Under the pieces are notes generated by a model. That model saw only the letters and a list, made by a program, of their open reading frames with translations, ran no database searches and was not told where the DNA came from. DNA of 64,000 bases from Rhodopirellula sp. SM50 (GTDB lineage: Bacteria; Planctomycetota; Planctomycetia; Pirellulales; Pirellulaceae). This document shows, piece by piece, positions 16,582 through 46,479 of the stretch. Location: contig NZ_NTFY01000030.1 of assembly GCF_002289565.1 (NCBI RefSeq), forward strand, positions 124,001 to 188,000, given 5' to 3'. Made by a program: the position numbers and the translations under genes. Position 1 is the stretch's first letter, and each line of letters opens with the position of its first letter.

Positions 16582-16646
16582 CCAAGCGCGGAAACGACGT
16601 GGGAGAGGCTTCCAGCCTGTCGATACGTCACAGTCTTGAACCGTCA

Positions 16647-18572
16647 ATGAGTCAGCGTTCCATGAGTGATTTGTCAGAACCGTCCACAGCGCAACTTCCC
16701 GAGCTGACACCCCGCGTGATCGTGCTGGGGCTGATCCTATCGGTCGTGATGGGCGCGGCAAACGTGTATGTCGGACTAAAGGCCGGGATGACCGTCTCGG
16801 CCTCGATTCCCGCGGCCGTGATGGCGATGCTGCTGTTCCGATTGCTGTTCAGGAAATCGAGCATCTTGGAAGCCAACCAAGTTCAGACGTGCGCTTCGGC
16901 GGGCGAGTCGCTGGCGGCGGGAATCATCTTCACGATGCCGGCAATGATTTTGATCGGGCACTGGCAATCGTTCGACTTCTGGACCGTCACGCTGGTCGCA
17001 CTGACCGGCGGGCTGCTGGGCATTCTGTTTATGATTCCGATGCGCCGCGTGTTCGTGGCGGACAACGAGGACCTGCCGTTCCCCGAAGGCGTGGCGTGTG
17101 CGGCCGTGTTGGAAGCCGGCGAAGAAGGCGACCATCAACAAGACGCCGCGACCAGCTTGTTGATCGGTGGGGCACTGGGAGCCGTCTTCAAGATCACCGC
17201 CGGATTCATGGGATTGGTCAACGATACGCTGCAGGTCGCCAGGACGACCGGCGAGCGGATCTTTTATTTCGGCGGGGACCTGTCCCCGATGTTGGTCGCC
17301 GTCGGTTTTATCGTGCGACTGAACGTGGCGGTGTTGATCTTTCTCGGCGGCTCGATCGGCTGGTTGATCGGCATTCCGCTGATGGGAGGTGCGTCCCAGT
17401 ACGAGGATCCGATCAGCGGCGCCTGGACCATCTGGAGTACCGAAATCCGATACGTCGGTGTGGGAGCGATGGTCGTCGGCGGGATCGGGTCACTGATCGC
17501 GGTGCGCCGCGGGCTGCTGTCTGCCATCACGGAGCTATGGCACGGACTGCGTGGTCGCCGGGTCACCCAGGATCACGGCCAACGCGACATTCCGTCGGGA
17601 CTGATTTTGGTGCTCGGCTTGGGTTGCACCGCGATGCTGGGCCTTGTGAATTTTCGTTTCACCGACGACCTCGGCGTCTCGGTCTTGTCGACCGTCGTGA
17701 TGCTCGCGATGGGTTTTTTCTTTACCGCGGTGGCCAGCTACATCGTCGGTCTGGTGGGCAATTCCAACAGCCCCGTGTCCGGGATGACGATCACCGCAGT
17801 TCTGGCGGCCGGCGGACTGTTGTGGCTGTTCAACTATTCGGGAACCCAAGGCATGGTGGCGACACTGGGCATCGCCGCGATCGTGTGCTGCGTCGCCTGC
17901 ACCAGCGGCGACGTCTGCAACGACCTGAAAACGGGCTCGTTGGTCGGGGCGGCACCGTTTCGGCAACAAACCATGCAGATCGCCGGCGTGTTTGTCGCAG
18001 CCTTTGTCATGGCTCCGGTGCTGACGCTGCTGCACAACAACACCCCGGGCGGGATCGGAGGCGCCCAACTGTCCGCGCCCCAAGCCAGCTTGTTCGCGAG
18101 TTTGGCCAAAGGGTTTGCGGGCGAAGGCGAACTTCCCTGGCGACTGATCGGTCTGGGCGCTGGCATCGGGGTGCTGATTTTGGGCATCGACGAACTGCTC
18201 AAACGCAAGACCAAACATCGTGCCCACCTGATGCCGATCGCGGTCGGCATGTATCTGCCGTTCGGATTGGCGACACCGATTTTGATCGGCGGATTGATCG
18301 CATGGTTCTGTACCAAGGCGACCCGGCGTGAAGAGCATGACCGCGTGTTGCACCGTGGGATCCTGTTTTCGTCCGGTGTAATTGCCGGTGAAGCGTTGAC
18401 GGCCGTTGGCTTGGCGGGGTTGGCGGCATTGGGAATCACGGCGTTGGATCTGGGACTCTCGCCGCTCGCCAAAAACCTGATCTCGATCGTCGTTGCGGCA
18501 GGAATCATCGCGGCGTTCGCGGTCATGACCAAACCCAGACCGTCGTCAGCGAGCGCCGCGTCGGATGACTGA
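16647..18572 (+). CDS. OPT-family oligopeptide transporter
   Basis: About 641 residues from ATG 16647 (MSQRSMSDLSEP); ATG 16662 and a GTG at 16599 are also in frame, and the latter region looks non-coding. It is a polytopic inner-membrane protein with some 14-16 helices. The family signature NVYVGLKAGMTVSASIPAAV follows the first helix, and further conserved segments are FPEGVACAAVLEAGEEG and GNSNSPVSGMTITA. OPT proteins import oligopeptides or metal-chelate complexes by proton symport. The gene starts 65 bases after the sulfatase on the same strand. The last codons (SSASAASDD) and stop come from the first unit of the 85-bp tandem repeat. Confidence 0.9.
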   Translation: MSQRSMSDLSEPSTAQLPELTPRVIVLGLILSVVMGAANVYVGLKAGMTVSASIPAAVMAMLLFRLLFRKSSILEANQVQTCASAGESLAAGIIFTMPAMILIGHWQSFDFWTVTLVALTGGLLGILFMIPMRRVFVADNEDLPFPEGVACAAVLEAGEEGDHQQDAATSLLIGGALGAVFKITAGFMGLVNDTLQVARTTGERIFYFGGDLSPMLVAVGFIVRLNVAVLIFLGGSIGWLIGIPLMGGASQYEDPISGAWTIWSTEIRYVGVGAMVVGGIGSLIAVRRGLLSAITELWHGLRGRRVTQDHGQRDIPSGLILVLGLGCTAMLGLVNFRFTDDLGVSVLSTVVMLAMGFFFTAVASYIVGLVGNSNSPVSGMTITAVLAAGGLLWLFNYSGTQGMVATLGIAAIVCCVACTSGDVCNDLKTGSLVGAAPFRQQTMQIAGVFVAAFVMAPVLTLLHNNTPGGIGGAQLSAPQASLFASLAKGFAGEGELPWRLIGLGAGIGVLILGIDELLKRKTKHRAHLMPIAVGMYLPFGLATPILIGGLIAWFCTKATRREEHDRVLHRGILFSSGVIAGEALTAVGLAGLAALGITALDLGLSPLAKNLISIVVAAGIIAAFAVMTKPRPSSASAASDD

Positions 18573-18732
18573 TTGCGATCACGCGCCACTGGCTGACGCC
18601 ACGTGCTGGGATGCACCTTAGCGGGAAGCGTCAGCGAGCGCCGCGTCGGATGACTGATTGCGATCACGCGCCACTGGCTGACGCCACGTGCTGGGATGCA
18701 CCTTAGCGGGAAGCGTTAGCGAGCGGCGCGTG
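18546..18732. repeat. 85-bp tandem repeat forming the ends of two convergent genes
   Basis: Two essentially identical 85-bp units (18546-18630 and 18631-18715) are followed by the first ~17 bases of a third. Each unit begins TCAGCGAGCGCCGCG, contains CCACTGGCTGACGCCACGTG, and ends GGGATGCACCTTAGCGGGAAGCG. The first unit encodes the tail and stop of the OPT gene; the partial third, read backwards, encodes the last residues (APLANASR) of the kinase gene. Related fragments lie at 7806-8040. Confidence 0.9.
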
Positions 18733-30139: not shown

Positions 30140-30190
30140 ACCGGTAAGCTGAAAGCTTACGTTGCTCGCAAGCTGGAAGCTTACGCCACG
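30140..30190. repeat. AAGCTGGAAGCTTACGCCAC short repeats
   Basis: Two imperfect copies of a unit containing AAGCTgnAAGCTTACG lie just before the peptidase gene. The same motif occurs twice at 40347-40395, next to the tandem repeat after the CstA-family gene. The AAGCT/AAGCTT core can form a small hairpin. Confidence 0.7.
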
Positions 30191-34725: not shown

Positions 34726-36483
34726 CTAGCCCGCGATCGCTCCGCCGCGTTTTTTGACGAAACCGACGATGACCGCGATGCCATACACGACGATCAAACC
34801 GATGATCACCGGGAAAGATTTTGGATCGTTGGCCTTTTCGCTGATCGCCGACACGGCGGCCACGATGGCTCCAATGACGGCAAACAACATCAGCACGTTC
34901 CAAACCATCATCCGCGCCCCGGTCGGCTTTTCCGCACCCAGAATCCGTTTGTTGTTCATCATCAGAAAAAAGGTCACGTAGGCGATCGGCAGCAGCATCA
35001 TCCCGAACGTGCTGGCAAAAATGGCCAGCCAGAACTTGGCTTCTCCGTCCCACAAATACCACCACGTCGCGCCGCTCAGACCCGCGACCAGACAACCGGC
35101 GACAAAGGGGGCCGCTCCGTCTGGCCGACCGGCCATTTCGCGAAACGCGTAACCGTTGATCAGCATCAGAATCACGATCGTCGAGAACCCCATCCCGAAC
35201 ACGCCGAGTCCGAAGACGAGGTTGGAGAGCGATTGACCGAGCAGGGGTTCCAGCGTGCCGGACAATTGAAACGCATTGCGTTTGACCAACGACAACGCAA
35301 CGCGTTTCTCTTCCACGCTGAGCGCGGCGACGCGCTGTAGTTTCTCTTCGCTAGACATCGATGCGGCTGCCTCGGCGCCCAGTTCGTGGTCGACCCGTCC
35401 CAACAGGATCGGTTCGACGCCCGTGTAGTACGGGCTCTCTTGCATCGTTGCCAAATCGTTACTGGCCAACGAATCGTCGATCTTGTTGTGCAGCGAAAAC
35501 GCTGCGGCGATCACGACGCAACTGGTCACCAGCACGTAGGGAATCGCCATGCCGGTCGACAGGTCGAACCGTGCCAACCCGCGGAACGGTTTGTCCCAGC
35601 CCCGGGCGAGCATCGAATAGGGCAAGAGGAATGTCATGTTGATCCCGACCGCGGTGGCCGCCGCGGCGATCATCACCGAACGTTGCGTGCTGACCAGTTG
35701 GCTCGTCCAATAGGATTGCTCGGATTGCCCCAGCGATGACACGACGGCCGCCATGTCGCCGGTCGGATTGTTCCACTGCGACAGATCGGGGATGAATCCG
35801 GCCAAGATTCCTCCGAATTCGAGTTCGCCGTTGATGGCCAACAACACCACGACCCCGAAGAAACAGATCACGACCATGCCGACCAACGATTTGAGCACGA
35901 TGTCAAACAGCTTGGCCGCACGGCCCTGTTTGGTGTTCAGCAGCACCACAAATCCGGCGGCGAAAAACAGCACGGCCGTGACGATGATCTTGGTGCTCGT
36001 GGCATCACCGAGCCCGTCACTGCCGGCCAGGTTGGCGAGGTTCTTGTCGATCGCGTCATAACAGAGGCTGAATTGTGGCATGCACCAGATGATGTTTGCC
36101 ATCGCCGTCGCGATGATCCATCCCCACCCCAACGCCGGATTGATTTCACTGTTGATCGCTTCAAACGGACGCCGCCCGGTCGACAACGTCACATAGCTGA
36201 TCGCCGACAGCATGATCACGCCCATCGTGATCGCCAGCAGCTGCAACCACAGCATGCTGGTTCCGCCCAACACGCCCAGGAACAACGCTCCGGCCAAGGA
36301 ACCGCCCCCCAGGGTGATCGCCGCTTGCAACCAGCCCGGCCCGGACAATCGCACGTACGTCGACAGCGTCTTTCCACTGGCCTGGGCGTCGAGCAATAGC
36401 TTGCGGTCGGCGAGCACTTTTTCGCTGACTTGGGGAGCAGACGCGGACGCGGCGTCAGAATGAGAGGTAGGTTGATCGGTCAT
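34726..36483 (-). CDS. Atypical Nramp-like transporter
   Basis: 585 residues from ATG 36483 (MTDQPTSHSD); longer readings enter the tandem repeat upstream and are artefacts. There are eleven or so membrane helices. The first conserved segment, RLSGPGWLQAAITLGGGSLAGALF, matches the Nramp start, but the metal-binding DPGN of helix 1 is replaced by GGGS. The helix 6 region reads INMTFLLPYSM instead of the usual MPH. A soluble insert of about 100 residues (SLHNKIDDSL to LSLVKRNAF) sits between later helices. The fold assignment is solid, but the substrate is unlikely to be Mn or Fe handled in the classical way. Confidence 0.8.
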   Translation of the reverse strand: MTDQPTSHSDAASASAPQVSEKVLADRKLLLDAQASGKTLSTYVRLSGPGWLQAAITLGGGSLAGALFLGVLGGTSMLWLQLLAITMGVIMLSAISYVTLSTGRRPFEAINSEINPALGWGWIIATAMANIIWCMPQFSLCYDAIDKNLANLAGSDGLGDATSTKIIVTAVLFFAAGFVVLLNTKQGRAAKLFDIVLKSLVGMVVICFFGVVVLLAINGELEFGGILAGFIPDLSQWNNPTGDMAAVVSSLGQSEQSYWTSQLVSTQRSVMIAAAATAVGINMTFLLPYSMLARGWDKPFRGLARFDLSTGMAIPYVLVTSCVVIAAAFSLHNKIDDSLASNDLATMQESPYYTGVEPILLGRVDHELGAEAAASMSSEEKLQRVAALSVEEKRVALSLVKRNAFQLSGTLEPLLGQSLSNLVFGLGVFGMGFSTIVILMLINGYAFREMAGRPDGAAPFVAGCLVAGLSGATWWYLWDGEAKFWLAIFASTFGMMLLPIAYVTFFLMMNNKRILGAEKPTGARMMVWNVLMLFAVIGAIVAAVSAISEKANDPKSFPVIIGLIVVYGIAVIVGFVKKRGGAIAG

Positions 36484-36577
36484 CGAATACGCGACAAAAG
36501 AGAAGGAGGGGGGAGCGGGGGATCCAGTCGCGAAATATAGCCGATGAAGCGCTGCGTGTGGTGCGGGGGCACGCGAA

Positions 36578-37055
36578 GTGGGGTAAGCATCTTGCTTGCC
36601 ATCCTGCAAAGTGGGGTAAGCATCCTGCTTGCCATCCTCGCCGGCTCTGCCGGCAGTCTCACGAGGCAGGAGCCTCCGAGACATGTGCGTTACGAGGCGG
36701 AGCCTCGTAACGAGGGCGCAAAGTGGGGTAAGCATCCTGCTTGCCATCCTCGCCGGCTCCGCCGGCAGTCTCGCGAGGCGGGAGCCTCCGAGACATGTGC
36801 GTTACGAGGCGGAGCCTCGTAACGAGGGCGCGAAGTGGGGTAAGCATCCTGCTTGCCATCCTCGCCGGCTCTGCCGGCGGACTCGCGAGGCGGGAGCCTC
36901 CGAGACCTGCGTGACGAGGCGGAGCCCCGTAACGAGGGCGCGAAGTGGGGTAAGCATCCTGCTTGCCATCCTCGCCGGCTCCGCCGGCAGTCTCGCGAGG
37001 CAGGAGCCTCCGAGACCTGCGTGACGAGGCGGAGCCTCGTCACGAGGGCCGAGTT
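36578..37055. repeat. Tandem array of 110-112-bp multi-hairpin units
   Basis: Units begin with GTGGGGTAAGCATCCTGCTT at 36611, 36723, 36835 and 36945 (periods 112, 112, 110); a truncated leader unit starts at 36578. Each unit has four hairpin-capable parts: AAGCATCCTGCTT, GCCGGCTCTGCCGGC, a GTCTCG..GAGGC/GCCTC.CGAGAC stem, and a terminal GTTACGAGGC/GCCTCGTAAC stem. The array fills the space between trxB and the Nramp-like gene. ORFs read through it are artefacts. Relatives lie at 40203-40330 and, inverted, at 46161-46391. Confidence 0.9.
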
Positions 37056-37058
37056 GCC

Positions 37059-38126
37059 TCACTCCAGTTCGACCAGATAGCGTTCGGCGTCGAGTGCGGC
37101 CATGCAGCCGGTCCCGGCCGAGGTGATCGCTTGGCGGTAGTAGTCATCGGCGACGTCACCGGCGGCAAACACGCCGGGGACCGAGGTGTTGGTGCGAAAC
37201 GCCTTGGCCCACTGGATGTAGCCGGCTTCGTTCATTTCGACGGCGCCCTCCAGGAAGGACGTGTTGGGCGTGTGGCCGATGGCGACAAACATGCCGCCGA
37301 CTTTCAGATCACGAACCGAGCCATCGACGGTACTTTTGACGCGGAGGTTATTGACCAGGTTTCCATCGCCCTGGACTTCCTCCACAACCGTGTTCCATTG
37401 GATGTCGATGTTGGGGTGATTGAGCGCTCGGTCTTGCATCACTTTGCTGGCCCGCATTTCATCGCGTCGCACCAGCAAGTAGATCGTGTCGGCGCCTTTC
37501 AGGTTCGCCAGATAGGTCGCTTCTTCGACCGCGGAGTCGCCGCCGCCGACGACCGCCAGCGGTTTGCTGCGATAGATCGGCAGGGCACCGTCGCAGACCG
37601 CACAGGCACTCACGCCCTTGTTCTTGTATGCCTCTTCGCTGGGCAGCCCCAGGTAGTTGGCCCGGGCGCCGGTGGCGATGATCACGGTGTGAGCCTCGAC
37701 GGTCGCGCCGCCGCTGGTGGTCAGCTTTTTCACCGGCGCGCTGAAATCCACGCTGAGAATGTCTTCACCGATCACACGGGTGCCGAAATTAAGCGCCTGT
37801 TGCTTCATCAGTTCCATCAATTCGACGCCCTGAACGGCGTAGTGCGGCTGTCCGTCTCGCTCATGGCCTTGGGGAACCGGCGGCAAGTTCCAGTGGCGGT
37901 CCTTGTCGACGGCCGATTCGACAAACGCGCGGATGTTGCCGGCCGGAAAACCCGCAAAGTTTTCAACCTCGGTCGTAAACGCCAATTGCCCCAGCGGAAT
38001 CATCTCCGGCTTGACGGTTCCCTCGTAGACGACCGGGTTCAGATTGGCTCGGGCGGCGTAAATCGCGGCGGACCAGCCGGCGGGGCCGCTGCCGATGATG
38101 ATGGTTTTTTCGGTCTCGTTGCTCAC
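37059..38126 (-). CDS. trxB: Thioredoxin-disulfide reductase
   Basis: A 355-residue flavoprotein that passes electrons from NADPH to thioredoxin. The FAD site is [19 protein letters not shown] at the N-terminus. The redox pair CAVC lies in [13 protein letters not shown], the NADPH site is [15 protein letters not shown], and [21 protein letters not shown] closes the FAD domain. Relative to the E. coli enzyme there is an insert of roughly 30 residues (around [19 protein letters not shown]) before the GVELMELM helix. The gene ends directly at the tandem hairpin array. It starts about 230 bases from the divergent CstA-family gene. Confidence 0.95.
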
Positions 38127-38358: not shown

Positions 38359-40203
38359 ATGAGCACTCTTTTTGTCGCCGTCTTGTCGATGGTCGGTTTT
38401 GTCGTCGCCTACAACACGTACGGCCGATGGCTGGCCAAGCGTCTGTTCGGGCTGACCGACGACGCCAGGATGCCGAGCGAGGAATGCCGCGACGATATCG
38501 ACTTCGTCCCGACGCGCAAATCGATCGTGTTCGGCCACCATTTCACCAGTATCGCCGGGACGGGGCCGATCGTGGGTCCGGCCCTGGCCGTGTTCTGGGG
38601 CTGGCTGCCGGCGCTGCTGTGGGTGGTGTTCGGGGCCATTTTGATCGGCGGCGTGCATGATCTGGCCGCCCTGGTGATCTCGATCCGCAACAAGGGCCAA
38701 ACGATCGGGCAAGCCGCCGGCCGATTGATTTCTCCCCGCGCCAAGGTGTTGTTTTTGATCGTCCTGGCGCTCGCCCTTTCGATCGTCTTGGCCGTGTTCG
38801 GATTGGTCATCGCCAGTATCTTTGCGATCTACCCCGAATCGGTGCTGAGCGTTTGGATTGCGATGCCGATCGCCGTCGTGATCGGGCTGCGTTATCGCAG
38901 CGGAGGCGGTTTGGTGATTCCCAGTCTGGTCGGTTTGGCCGCGCTGTATGTCGCAGTTTACCTGGGCGCCTATCACCTGCCCGTCGATTTGACGCCCTAT
39001 TTGCCCACCGACAGCCTGCTCTGGACCCCGACGGTCGTCTGGACCATCGCACTGCTGATTTACGCCTTCATCGCGTCGGTGCTTCCCGTTTGGTTGTTGC
39101 TACAGCCGCGGGACTACATCAACAGCTTGCAGTTGTTCGTGGCACTGGCGCTGTTGTTGGCCGGTCTGGGCATCGCCTCGCTGACCGGTCAAGCCCAATT
39201 GACCGATTCGGCGCCGATGATCGCCAGCGAAGTCCCGGCCGATGCGCCGAGCATGTTTCCGTTTCTGTTCATCACGATCGCCTGTGGCGCCTGCAGCGGG
39301 TTTCATTGCCTGGTCAGCAGCGGAACGACCAGCAAGCAACTCGAAAAAGCGAGCGATGCCCAGGCGGTCGGCTATGGCAGCATGTTGCTCGAAGGCATGC
39401 TGGCCGTGCTGGTGATCTTGGCCTGTTCGGCCGGCGTGGGCATGGGCCCGCTGACGCGCAGCGTGACGACGGTGGGCGAAGGGGCGGCGGCCCGGTCGGT
39501 CGTCGCGATCGAGCGAGCCGACGTCTCGGGGAATCAGGCGTGGCGAGAATACTATCGAACCGGAGCTGATGGAGAGCCGGACGCGGGTTGGAAAAAGCAG
39601 AACCTTGCCAAGAAACTGCGGGCCTTCGTCGACGGCGGGGCAAACTTCTTGTCCGCACTCGGGCTGCCCCTCCGCATGGCGATCGCGATCATGGCGGTCC
39701 TGGTCGCCTGTTTCGCCGCCACCACCCTAGACACCGCTACCCGTCTGCAGCGCTACGTGATCAGCGAACTGGCGCTCTCGGCGGGCGCCAAACCGCTGGC
39801 CAACAAGTACGTGGCCACCGGGATCGCCGTCGGGGTTGGATTGGCCATCGCCGTGTTCGCCGGCGACAGTCCTGGCAAGGGAGGCTTGGTGTTGTGGCCG
39901 TTGTTCGGCGCGACCAATCAGCTGCTGGCCGGATTGGCGCTGATGGTCGCACTGATCTTCTTGGCCCGACGCAGCAAACCGCTCGCCTCGGTGATGATCC
40001 CGATGTTTGTGATGTTGTTGATGCCCGCCTGGGCGATCACCTACGACCTGTTTTACAACTGGCTGCCGTCGGGCAACATCGTGTTGACCACGTTCGGGTT
40101 TTCGATTCTGGGGCTGCAGATCTGGATGGCGGTCGAAGGGCTGATGGTCTGGGGCCGCTGCCGAGGCGTCTTGGAACAGCCCGCCGAAACCGCCGCCGGC
40201 TAG
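38359..40203 (+). CDS. CstA-family (carbon starvation/pyruvate) transporter
   Basis: 614 residues from ATG 38359 (MSTLFVAVLSMVGFVVAYNTYGRWLAKRL); an upstream in-frame start at 38245 adds an unlikely leader. It is an inner-membrane protein with about 15 helices. CstA signatures are seen: FGHHFTSIAGTGPIVGPALAVFWGW, then GGVHDLAALVISIRNKGQTIG, then FHCLVSSGTTSKQLE, and ATTLDTATRLQRY toward the end. CstA/BtsT proteins take up pyruvate or peptides during nutrient limitation. The stop TAG runs straight into the downstream repeat array. Regulation cannot be read from the upstream sequence. Confidence 0.93.
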   Translation: MSTLFVAVLSMVGFVVAYNTYGRWLAKRLFGLTDDARMPSEECRDDIDFVPTRKSIVFGHHFTSIAGTGPIVGPALAVFWGWLPALLWVVFGAILIGGVHDLAALVISIRNKGQTIGQAAGRLISPRAKVLFLIVLALALSIVLAVFGLVIASIFAIYPESVLSVWIAMPIAVVIGLRYRSGGGLVIPSLVGLAALYVAVYLGAYHLPVDLTPYLPTDSLLWTPTVVWTIALLIYAFIASVLPVWLLLQPRDYINSLQLFVALALLLAGLGIASLTGQAQLTDSAPMIASEVPADAPSMFPFLFITIACGACSGFHCLVSSGTTSKQLEKASDAQAVGYGSMLLEGMLAVLVILACSAGVGMGPLTRSVTTVGEGAAARSVVAIERADVSGNQAWREYYRTGADGEPDAGWKKQNLAKKLRAFVDGGANFLSALGLPLRMAIAIMAVLVACFAATTLDTATRLQRYVISELALSAGAKPLANKYVATGIAVGVGLAIAVFAGDSPGKGGLVLWPLFGATNQLLAGLALMVALIFLARRSKPLASVMIPMFVMLLMPAWAITYDLFYNWLPSGNIVLTTFGFSILGLQIWMAVEGLMVWGRCRGVLEQPAETAAG

Positions 40204-40395
40204 TGGGGTAAGCATCCTGCTTGCCACTGGCGAGCGGAAAGCTCGGCTAGTGGGGTAAGCATCCTGCTTGCCACTGGCGAGCGGAAGCTCGGCTGGTGGG
40301 GTAAGCATCCTGCTTGCCACTGGCGAGCTGAAAGCTCGCGTGGATCGCAAGCTGGAAGCTTACGCCACTTTTCGCAAGCTGGAAGCTTACGCCAC
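40203..40395. repeat. 46/47-bp tandem repeat after the CstA-family gene, plus AAGCTT units
   Basis: Three units starting GTGGGGTAAGCATCCTGCTT at 40203, 40250 and 40296 (periods 47, 46), each with a GAGCggaaaGCTC hairpin, are followed by GCGAGCtgaaaGCTCGC. Two AAGCTGGAAGCTTACGCCAC units then end at 40395. The first base of the array is the G of the CstA-family stop codon. Bases 40396-40608 show no gene. Confidence 0.88.
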
Positions 40396-46045: not shown

Positions 46046-46160
46046 ACGCGTCCGCCGGCCGGGAACGTCGACTCGTTTACTGCAGGATTTGGTAACCAAT
46101 TTAGAATCTCTCCCTCTGGGAGAGACGGCGTTTGCGCAGCAAGCAAACGCCAGAGAGGGC

Positions 46161-46391
46161 CCACCTCGCACTGATTCCCAGGCTCCCGCCTGGAACACAA
46201 TGTCTCGGAGGCTCCCGCCTCGCGCATTCGCCGGCAGAGCCGGCGACGGCGGCAAGCAGGATGCTTACCCCACCTCGTACTTGTTCCCAGGCTCCCGCCT
46301 GGGAACACAATGTCTCGGAGGCTCCCGCCTCGCGCGCCCGCCGGCAGAGCCGTCAACGGTGGCAAGCAGGATGCTTACCCCACCTCGCACT
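46161..46391. repeat. Inverted tandem copies of the multi-hairpin repeat
   Basis: Two units of 109 and 110 bp (46161-46269, 46270-46379) and the start of a third are the reverse orientation of the 36578-37055 family; they end GCAAGCAGGATGCTTACCCC. The terminal hairpin is GTTCCCAGGC/GCCTGGGAAC (46283-46306) instead of GTTACGAGGC/GCCTCGTAAC. Just before, 46106-46160 holds a CTCCCTCTGGGAG palindrome and a GGCGTTTG/CAAACGCC hairpin. The 46046-46479 gap has no gene. Confidence 0.88.
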
Positions 46392-46479
46392 TGGACCCAG
46401 GAAAAACCTTGCCTTTTAAGACACCCTGTCTTATTCTGGTGTGATTGGCAAACCATCACACCATGAAACGGGGATTCCG

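Follow-up and report, generated by a model that had tools for sequence, protein, structure and literature searches.

The window, meaning the whole 64,000-nt stretch of Rhodopirellula sp. SM50 DNA that was analyzed, carries a tandem array between two minus-strand genes, an Nramp-family transporter gene and a thioredoxin reductase gene. Direct reading and Tandem Repeats Finder resolve 36576-37049 into one partial and four full tandem units, the full units starting at 36609, 36721, 36833 and 36943 and measuring 112, 112, 110 and ~107 bp. The four multi-hairpin tandem units of 110-112 bp described in an earlier note on this DNA were thus found again, with a somewhat shorter fourth member. In each of the four full units the same four hairpins follow one another: H1, which in the array reads GTGG-GGTAAGCA-TCC-TGCTTGCC; H2, a GCCGGC..GCCGGC hairpin; H3, a hairpin around GAGGC..GCCTC; and the terminal stem, H4. 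The motif GTGGGGTAAGCATCCTGCTT yielded 13 matches in the window at no more than three mismatches, compared with 0 in 100 shuffles. The array, its flanking landmarks and the other H1 sites are the following:

30167..30189, minus strand: lone H1 of the CGTAAGCTTCCAGCTTGCG type (motif search)
34726..36483, minus strand: Nramp-family transporter gene, left landmark
36576..36608, plus strand: partial unit with one H1 (36578-36600) and a truncated tail (direct reading, Tandem Repeats Finder, motif search)
36609..36720, plus strand: unit 1, with H1 at 36611-36633, H2 (GCCGGC), H3 (GAGGC) and H4 at 36689-36711
36721..36832, plus strand: unit 2, with H1 at 36723-36745 and H4 at 36801-36823
36833..36942, plus strand: unit 3, with H1 at 36835-36857 and H4, with two mismatches, at 36911-36933
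36943..37049, plus strand: unit 4, with H1 at 36945-36967 and H4 (GTGAC/GTCAC) at 37021-37043
37059..38126, minus strand: thioredoxin reductase gene (trxB; TIGR01292), right landmark for the sister-species comparison
40203..40395, no single strand: second H1 cluster, with three H1 on the plus strand (40203, 40250, 40296) and two on the minus strand (40346-40368, 40373-40395)
46160..46401, minus strand: third array, made up of two composite units whose H1 lie at 46251-46273 and 46361-46383

The first base of the second cluster is the last base of a CstA gene, and its GTGG tags point outward. A weaker H1 match lies inside an ORF at 16599.

The earlier note had singled out the terminal stem, and its arms and their positions are as stated there: GTTACGAGGC/GCCTCGTAAC in units 1 and 2, GTGACGAGGC/GCCTCGTCAC in unit 4, and a mismatched GTGACGAGGC/GCCCCGTAAC in unit 3; the third array has GTTCCCAGGC/GCCTGGGAAC. 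The history of this stem was approached through the trxB-Nramp junction in related species. trxB is present in ten other genomes of the genus, and in five of them the fetched flank contains the adjoining Nramp gene. The junction holds one unit, preceded by a similar partial H1, in genome G150, five units in G151 (four in the window genome), ~320 bp of other sequence in G153 and only 103 bp in G154; since unit number and junction content differ between species at the same place, the array grew or shrank in situ. In G148 the same junction is occupied by a different repeat, a 38-bp hairpin unrelated to the array and present in about ten tandem copies (locus L370). The single unit of G150 has GTGAC/GTCAC arms, so the unit-4 type is probably the ancestral state; units 1 and 2, in which both arms are changed, would then be derived, and unit 3, which shares its left arm with unit 4 and has a changed right arm, would probably be intermediate. 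The arms did change together between unit 4 and units 1-2, as claimed, but as one event within the array rather than several. The further claim that the structure of this stem is kept did not stand up, because G151 has lost the H4 hairpin in four of its five units and has a mismatched one in the fifth. On the sequences compared, H4 is a passenger that is not strictly kept, and its single compensatory change in the window array can be accounted for by drift and conversion. H4-like cores occur in 96 instances elsewhere in the own-genome sample, many of them with matched arms. No enzyme partner of H4 was found, an H4-like core being present at 0 of 58 Y1 transposase loci, and the H4 core strings matched only papers that looked unrelated in the literature searched. 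As a separate observation, the loops of H4-type hairpins at three sites (L048, 9171, minus strand; L064, 11501; L265, 2688, minus strand) hold a segment of 149-151 bp that resembles a small inserted element and is bounded at both ends by the terminal inverted repeats CTACGCCGTGAAC and GGCGGAGCC; single ends of it are present at L052, L062, L073, L264, L275 and L276.

The first hairpin of the unit behaves differently from the terminal stem. H1 is a 23-nt element made up of a GTGG tag, an 8-bp hairpin with the stem SRTARGCW/WGCYTGYS, in which the third pair is T.G, and a TCC loop. The window genome contains 344 copies under a strict pattern and 845 under a wider superfamily pattern; the reversed pattern returned 0. 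Within the family the strict H1 is patchy, occurring in 21 of 149 genomes, the window genome included, with counts from 1 to 344. Covariation over genomic copies, a check put forward in the earlier note, was assessed on H1 using two sets of sequences. The first comprised 408 distinct copies retrieved with up to four mismatches allowed, which makes it the less biased set for counting the third pair. Four pairs of the stem change on both sides in this set: 4-22 (CG 207, GC 182), 5-21 (GC 370, AT 24), 8-18 (AT 361, GC 25) and 11-15 (TA 293, AT 86, CG 5), all these being counts over related copies and not over independent events. The third pair, 6-20, is TG in 380 copies, CG in 22 and TA in 0, so that the G opposite the wobble T is nearly invariant. 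The tag abuts the stem directly, and each of its bases is found in 396-400 of the 408 copies, under a pattern that favoured GTGG. The second set started from 611 superfamily copies, of which 59 with fewer than six of eight pairs were dropped; the remaining 552 collapsed into 145 distinct 23-mers. In this set, which was filtered for pairing, pairing reached 89.7%, whereas 1000 column shuffles never exceeded 76.5% and sliding the partner gave 24-43%; two-sided cells numbered 180, as against a maximum of 75 in 1000 column shuffles of the same pairing-filtered set. The proposal that structure and not sequence is kept is therefore supported for H1, on the strength of its two-sided stem changes, and not for the terminal stem. 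The paired mutations of H1 fit recognition of a folded shape.

Matched arms would also result if arm-to-arm gene conversion or template switching in palindromes were the only source of the paired changes and no enzyme read the fold. For the terminal stem this is possible, and a plausible two-step path (GTGAC/GTCAC, GTGAC/GTAAC, GTTAC/GTAAC) can be traced in the window array. Conversion fails to explain H1 because the T.G pair is kept: it would turn T.G into T-A or C-G, the very combinations that are absent or scarce among the 408 copies. It predicts neither a conserved tag and loop nor the occurrence of these same hairpins around a transposase gene, and as a general account of the array we consider it improbable.

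The features of H1 were then compared with those of repetitive extragenic palindromic (REP) elements. In its available portions, PMC6006769 describes a REP by a GTAG or GTGG tag located 0-2 nt 5' of a hairpin with a stem of 7-20 paired nt and a loop of 2-5, and H1 agrees with this description in its tag, its stem of eight pairs (one of them T.G) and its TCC loop. At least three G/C among the first four stem bases, which the same portions of the source use as a search filter with exceptions and not as a definition, are not found in H1, where GGTA, CGTA and GATA contain 2, 2 and 1. H1 is abundant and mainly intergenic, as REPs are: besides its 845 copies, 58 of 93 clusters fall outside ORFs in a 1.19 Mb sample of which ORFs, as crudely called, cover 90%. 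On the same crude calls, 46 of these 58 intergenic clusters lie nearer to the 3' end of a gene, at a median distance of 6 bp, and 35 more clusters lie inside ORFs. An apparent bias of H1 toward the sense orientation (20 versus 2) was withdrawn as confounded by ORF calling, since antisense H1, read from its sequence, contains a stop codon in none of the frames. Neighboring H1 copies no more than 120 bp apart were direct in 92 cases, outward-inverted (GTGG out) in 50 and inward in 1 at loci of the window genome, where direct tandem neighbors are thus the commoner arrangement; the respective numbers in other genomes were 49, 84 and 4. Inverted pairs with outward tags, the arrangement of REP dimers or REPINs, are therefore frequent, and their common spacers measure 11-14, 19-21, 41-47 and ~101-102 bp. 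The longest of these spacers carry H2 and other hairpins, as the window unit does. To be a full REPIN, the latter would need a second, inverted H1, which it lacks.

The position of H1 clusters at gene ends could also be read as a sign that the array is a structured RNA, either an mRNA-stabilizing or attenuating element or a small RNA, with its fold under selection. The hairpins are stable, and transcription of the GTGG strand would make the H1 wobble an ordinary G-U pair. The evidence gathered does not support this reading of the earlier note: the whole window has no match above the gathering score to any of 4227 Rfam families; no promoter or terminator pattern lies inside the array, the sole terminator hit in 36300-37300 being outside it, at 36399; at arrays 1 and 3 the neighboring genes or ORFs run antisense to the GTGG strand; and the trxB-Nramp junction holds 0 to 5 units between species, with most terminal stems deleted in G151. 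We accordingly regard a structured RNA as an unlikely explanation.

Y1 (REP-associated) transposases of the window genome and its relatives were examined as possible partners of H1. PF01797 matches number 8 in the window genome and 91 in eight relatives, and 58 loci were inspected, the 8 own ones and 50 from relatives, including all matches of G016, G104, G127 and G063. These genes were rejected as partners, strict H1 being present in the fetched flanks of only one locus, L038 of the window genome, where one H1 and two H1-like copies lie ~0.6-0.7 kb beyond the open frame. The L038 family, found in 59 of 149 genomes, was likewise rejected, with no H1 at the 29 other-genome loci examined out of 58. 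To the eye, an 85-bp direct repeat at 18544-18731 of the window is similar to the cluster of hairpins that surrounds the L038 transposase. The window genome also has a ninth Y1 gene of the REP-associated kind (C104:287948; L053, 7849-8424), which scores 184 bits with NCBIfam NF047646, falls under the Pfam cut-off (21.1 versus 23 bits) and is flanked by many GTAG-GGCACGC hairpins. A family of double-Y1 proteins (L139; 31 of 149 genomes) was discarded as well, strict H1 being absent from the flanks of L281-L308 and L310; its own CCACCGAGC hairpins are present in 3 of 18 regions fetched (G016, G104, G053). Proteins of this type (L139, L143, L145 and relatives in G016, G104, G024 and others) look like two fused half-domains. 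In L139 the N-terminal half is without an HUH motif, and the C-terminal half has one and alone matches PF01797; judging from the sequence, such a protein would form one composite active site per chain. H1-like hairpins lie 0.2-1 kb from some of these other Y1 genes or remnants (L038, L143, L151, L309). Those 0.5-1 kb from L143 and L151, which came from a general scan for tagged hairpins, and the two H1-like repeats ~170 bp from L309, a decayed double-Y1 piece in G044, were judged to be chance occurrences. That H1 is moved by one of the nine Y1 enzymes of the window genome is the least probable of the alternatives, all nine being of the right general type and L038 having H1 nearby, but six of them (L031-L034, L038 and L053) adjoining a different hairpin family, as seen mostly by eye, the other three (L035-L037) being accompanied by other repeats, and the wider L038 family showing no H1 at the 29 loci examined. 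The three last-named genes represent another type of Y1 gene; AAAAAGGGTCAGGAGCC-type repeats bound L035 and L037, and AAAGGGGAAGGGGGTCATTT-type repeats bound L036.

A different candidate emerged when 132 H1-bearing loci, of which one came from the window genome, were scanned with local profiles. Three loci matched: L237, a Y1-type gene with H1 on both sides; L214, where the match is 3.3 kb from H1; and L210, where it is weak. Close homologues of the L237 gene (47-60% identity) were found in 11 of 149 genomes, with an in-frame stop in the copies of two. Superfamily hairpins are present at all 11 close-homologue loci, at three of four intermediate loci (34-41% identity) and beside a relic in G127, of the same genus, and are absent from a relic in G139 (L395) and from the intermediate homologue L392. 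Taking the 20 loci of the subfamily together, tagged superfamily hairpins occur within 166 bp in 19, on both sides in 17 and on one side in 2, L392 being the only locus without them. None of 13 more distant loci (L396-L408) has H1-type hairpins; other tagged hairpins are found at L404-L406. The hairpin type varies between homologues (GATAGGC, CATAGGC, CCTAGGC with GTAG, CACAGGC, and so on), and some relatives have a GTAG tag in the hairpins beside the gene. Among 58 hairpin types counted per locus only one (L379) has a T-A third pair, in a tally that, like that of the superfamily set, used patterns favoring T or C and G at these positions. H1 itself accompanies the gene in relatives of the window species. 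A profile search of 18 genomes recovered intact genes in three close relatives, namely G150, G151 and Planctomycetes bacterium TBK1r (G149, where the gene is chromosomal), with H1 on both sides in the first two and on the downstream side in TBK1r; outward-pair arrays also lie beside the gene. The search for a REP-associated Y1 transposase suggested in the earlier note thus led to a subfamily of REP-associated tyrosine transposases (RAYTs) that in relatives is flanked by matching hairpins, which is the arrangement of a REPtron. The idea of a hairpin copied by a DNA-processing enzyme hence gained support for H1 and none for the terminal stem.

The proteins of this subfamily are divergent. Pfam returned no match for three of them, and NCBIfam NF047646 (REP-associated tyrosine transposase) matched with E-values of 1e-20 to 4e-19 and 69-74 bits, below the curated cut-off of 80. 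The only PDB match was 4er8, 'TnpArep' (E 4.6e-9), which we take to be of E. coli origin. The HxH, WQ and YIxxNP motifs expected of an HUH/tyrosine enzyme are invariant in 13 aligned sequences (H121, H123, W177 Q178, Y198 I199 N202 P203). Judging from these matches, the L237-type gene is a divergent RAYT related to TnpA-REP.

The RAYT itself was not found in the window-genome assembly by profile search (best score 33 bits), and the RAYT neighborhoods of the three relatives had no match longer than 250 bp in 117 own-genome loci (1.6 Mb with overlaps). Either the gene is gone from this genome or the assembly has a gap where it lies, the latter being conceivable because the assembly is split into 146 contigs and genes of this kind are placed between repeats. 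Five other H1-rich genomes (G016, G024, G104, G063, G120) have no intact close homologue, the best score among them being 110 bits in G024, at a place without H1; some H1-rich genomes of this kind have fragmented assemblies. Strict H1 and the close homologue show poor co-occurrence over the panel of 149 genomes: 3 of the 11 that have a close homologue contain strict H1, versus 18 of the 138 without one, and the remaining close-homologue genomes have other hairpin types beside the gene.

We conclude, with a probability of about 0.8, that H1 is a REP element and the recognition hairpin of a divergent RAYT, its spread being inferred, and that the array was amplified in place. The RAYT would bind H1 folded in the GTGG strand when the DNA is single-stranded, and would cut and join next to it. 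Copies of H1 may have spread in this way, often as inverted, GTGG-outward pairs whose spacers would carry passenger hairpins, and one H1-H2-H3-H4 unit would then have been tandemly amplified in place into the local array, which has 1, 4 and 5 units in three species. Binding, cutting and mobility are proposed by analogy with TnpA-REP as described in the available part of PMC8266576; no excision or new insertion of H1 was seen.

Several known systems resemble the one proposed. The accessible sections of PMC3733652 (Di Nocera et al. 2013) describe GTAG-superfamily REPs whose 6-9 bp stem has a tag of four nucleotides at its base, comes in complementary variants and contains G-T pairs; these REPs form outward dimers with hairpin-bearing spacers, and in REPtrons they flank tyrosine transposase genes. 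The same sections also mention a GTGG tag in Opitutus terrae and several REP families and many transposases in Rhodopirellula baltica. H1 shares the tag, the stem variants, the G-T pairs, the outward dimers, the spacers with hairpins and the REP-flanked transposase. It differs in having a transposase that Pfam does not detect and that the searches did not recover from the window genome. For E. coli TnpA-REP, PMC8266576, as far as available, reports a Y1 enzyme with HUH and tyrosine motifs, a tag with an imperfect hairpin, and strand-specific recognition in which the stem irregularity matters, all of which parallel what is seen or proposed for H1; in the REPs of E. coli the tag is GTAG and the irregularity an AA/GC bulge, whereas H1 has GTGG and one T.G pair, which would take the role of the bulge. 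The H1-linked RAYT further differs from the E. coli enzyme in having ~80 residues ahead of the segment that aligns with NF047646. REPIN populations, according to the available text of PMC8049555, consist of inverted REP pairs at high copy, and E. coli genomes without a RAYT keep REPINs, in smaller numbers; the window genome differs in having 845 superfamily copies with no RAYT found. REPs, REPINs, RAYTs, GTGG tags and planctomycete REPs are thus already known, going by the available parts of PMC3733652 and PMC6006769, and H1 would belong to a planctomycete REP/REPIN superfamily. The pairing of this enzyme with this hairpin is new as far as literature searches show, H1 having been set against the PMC3733652 families by the available text only; the literature searched contained neither the H1 core strings nor Rhodopirellula together with 'repetitive extragenic palindromic'.

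The analysis links a specific enzyme, missed by Pfam and scoring under the NCBIfam cut-off, to a repeat that some Pirellulaceae genomes contain in large numbers. A broader scenario, to which we give even odds, is that a Pfam-invisible RAYT subfamily and its GTRG hairpins changed together across Pirellulaceae genera, the enzyme tolerating changes at four paired stem positions and needing the third pair to consist of a pyrimidine faced by a G, and that in the window species the 845 hairpins outlive the enzyme and have been tandemly amplified into mosaic hairpin arrays. Natural enzyme-hairpin pairs with differing stems are useful for learning how RAYTs read a folded hairpin, and Stieleria species with and without the RAYT offer a system for asking what sustains a REPIN population after loss of its transposase.
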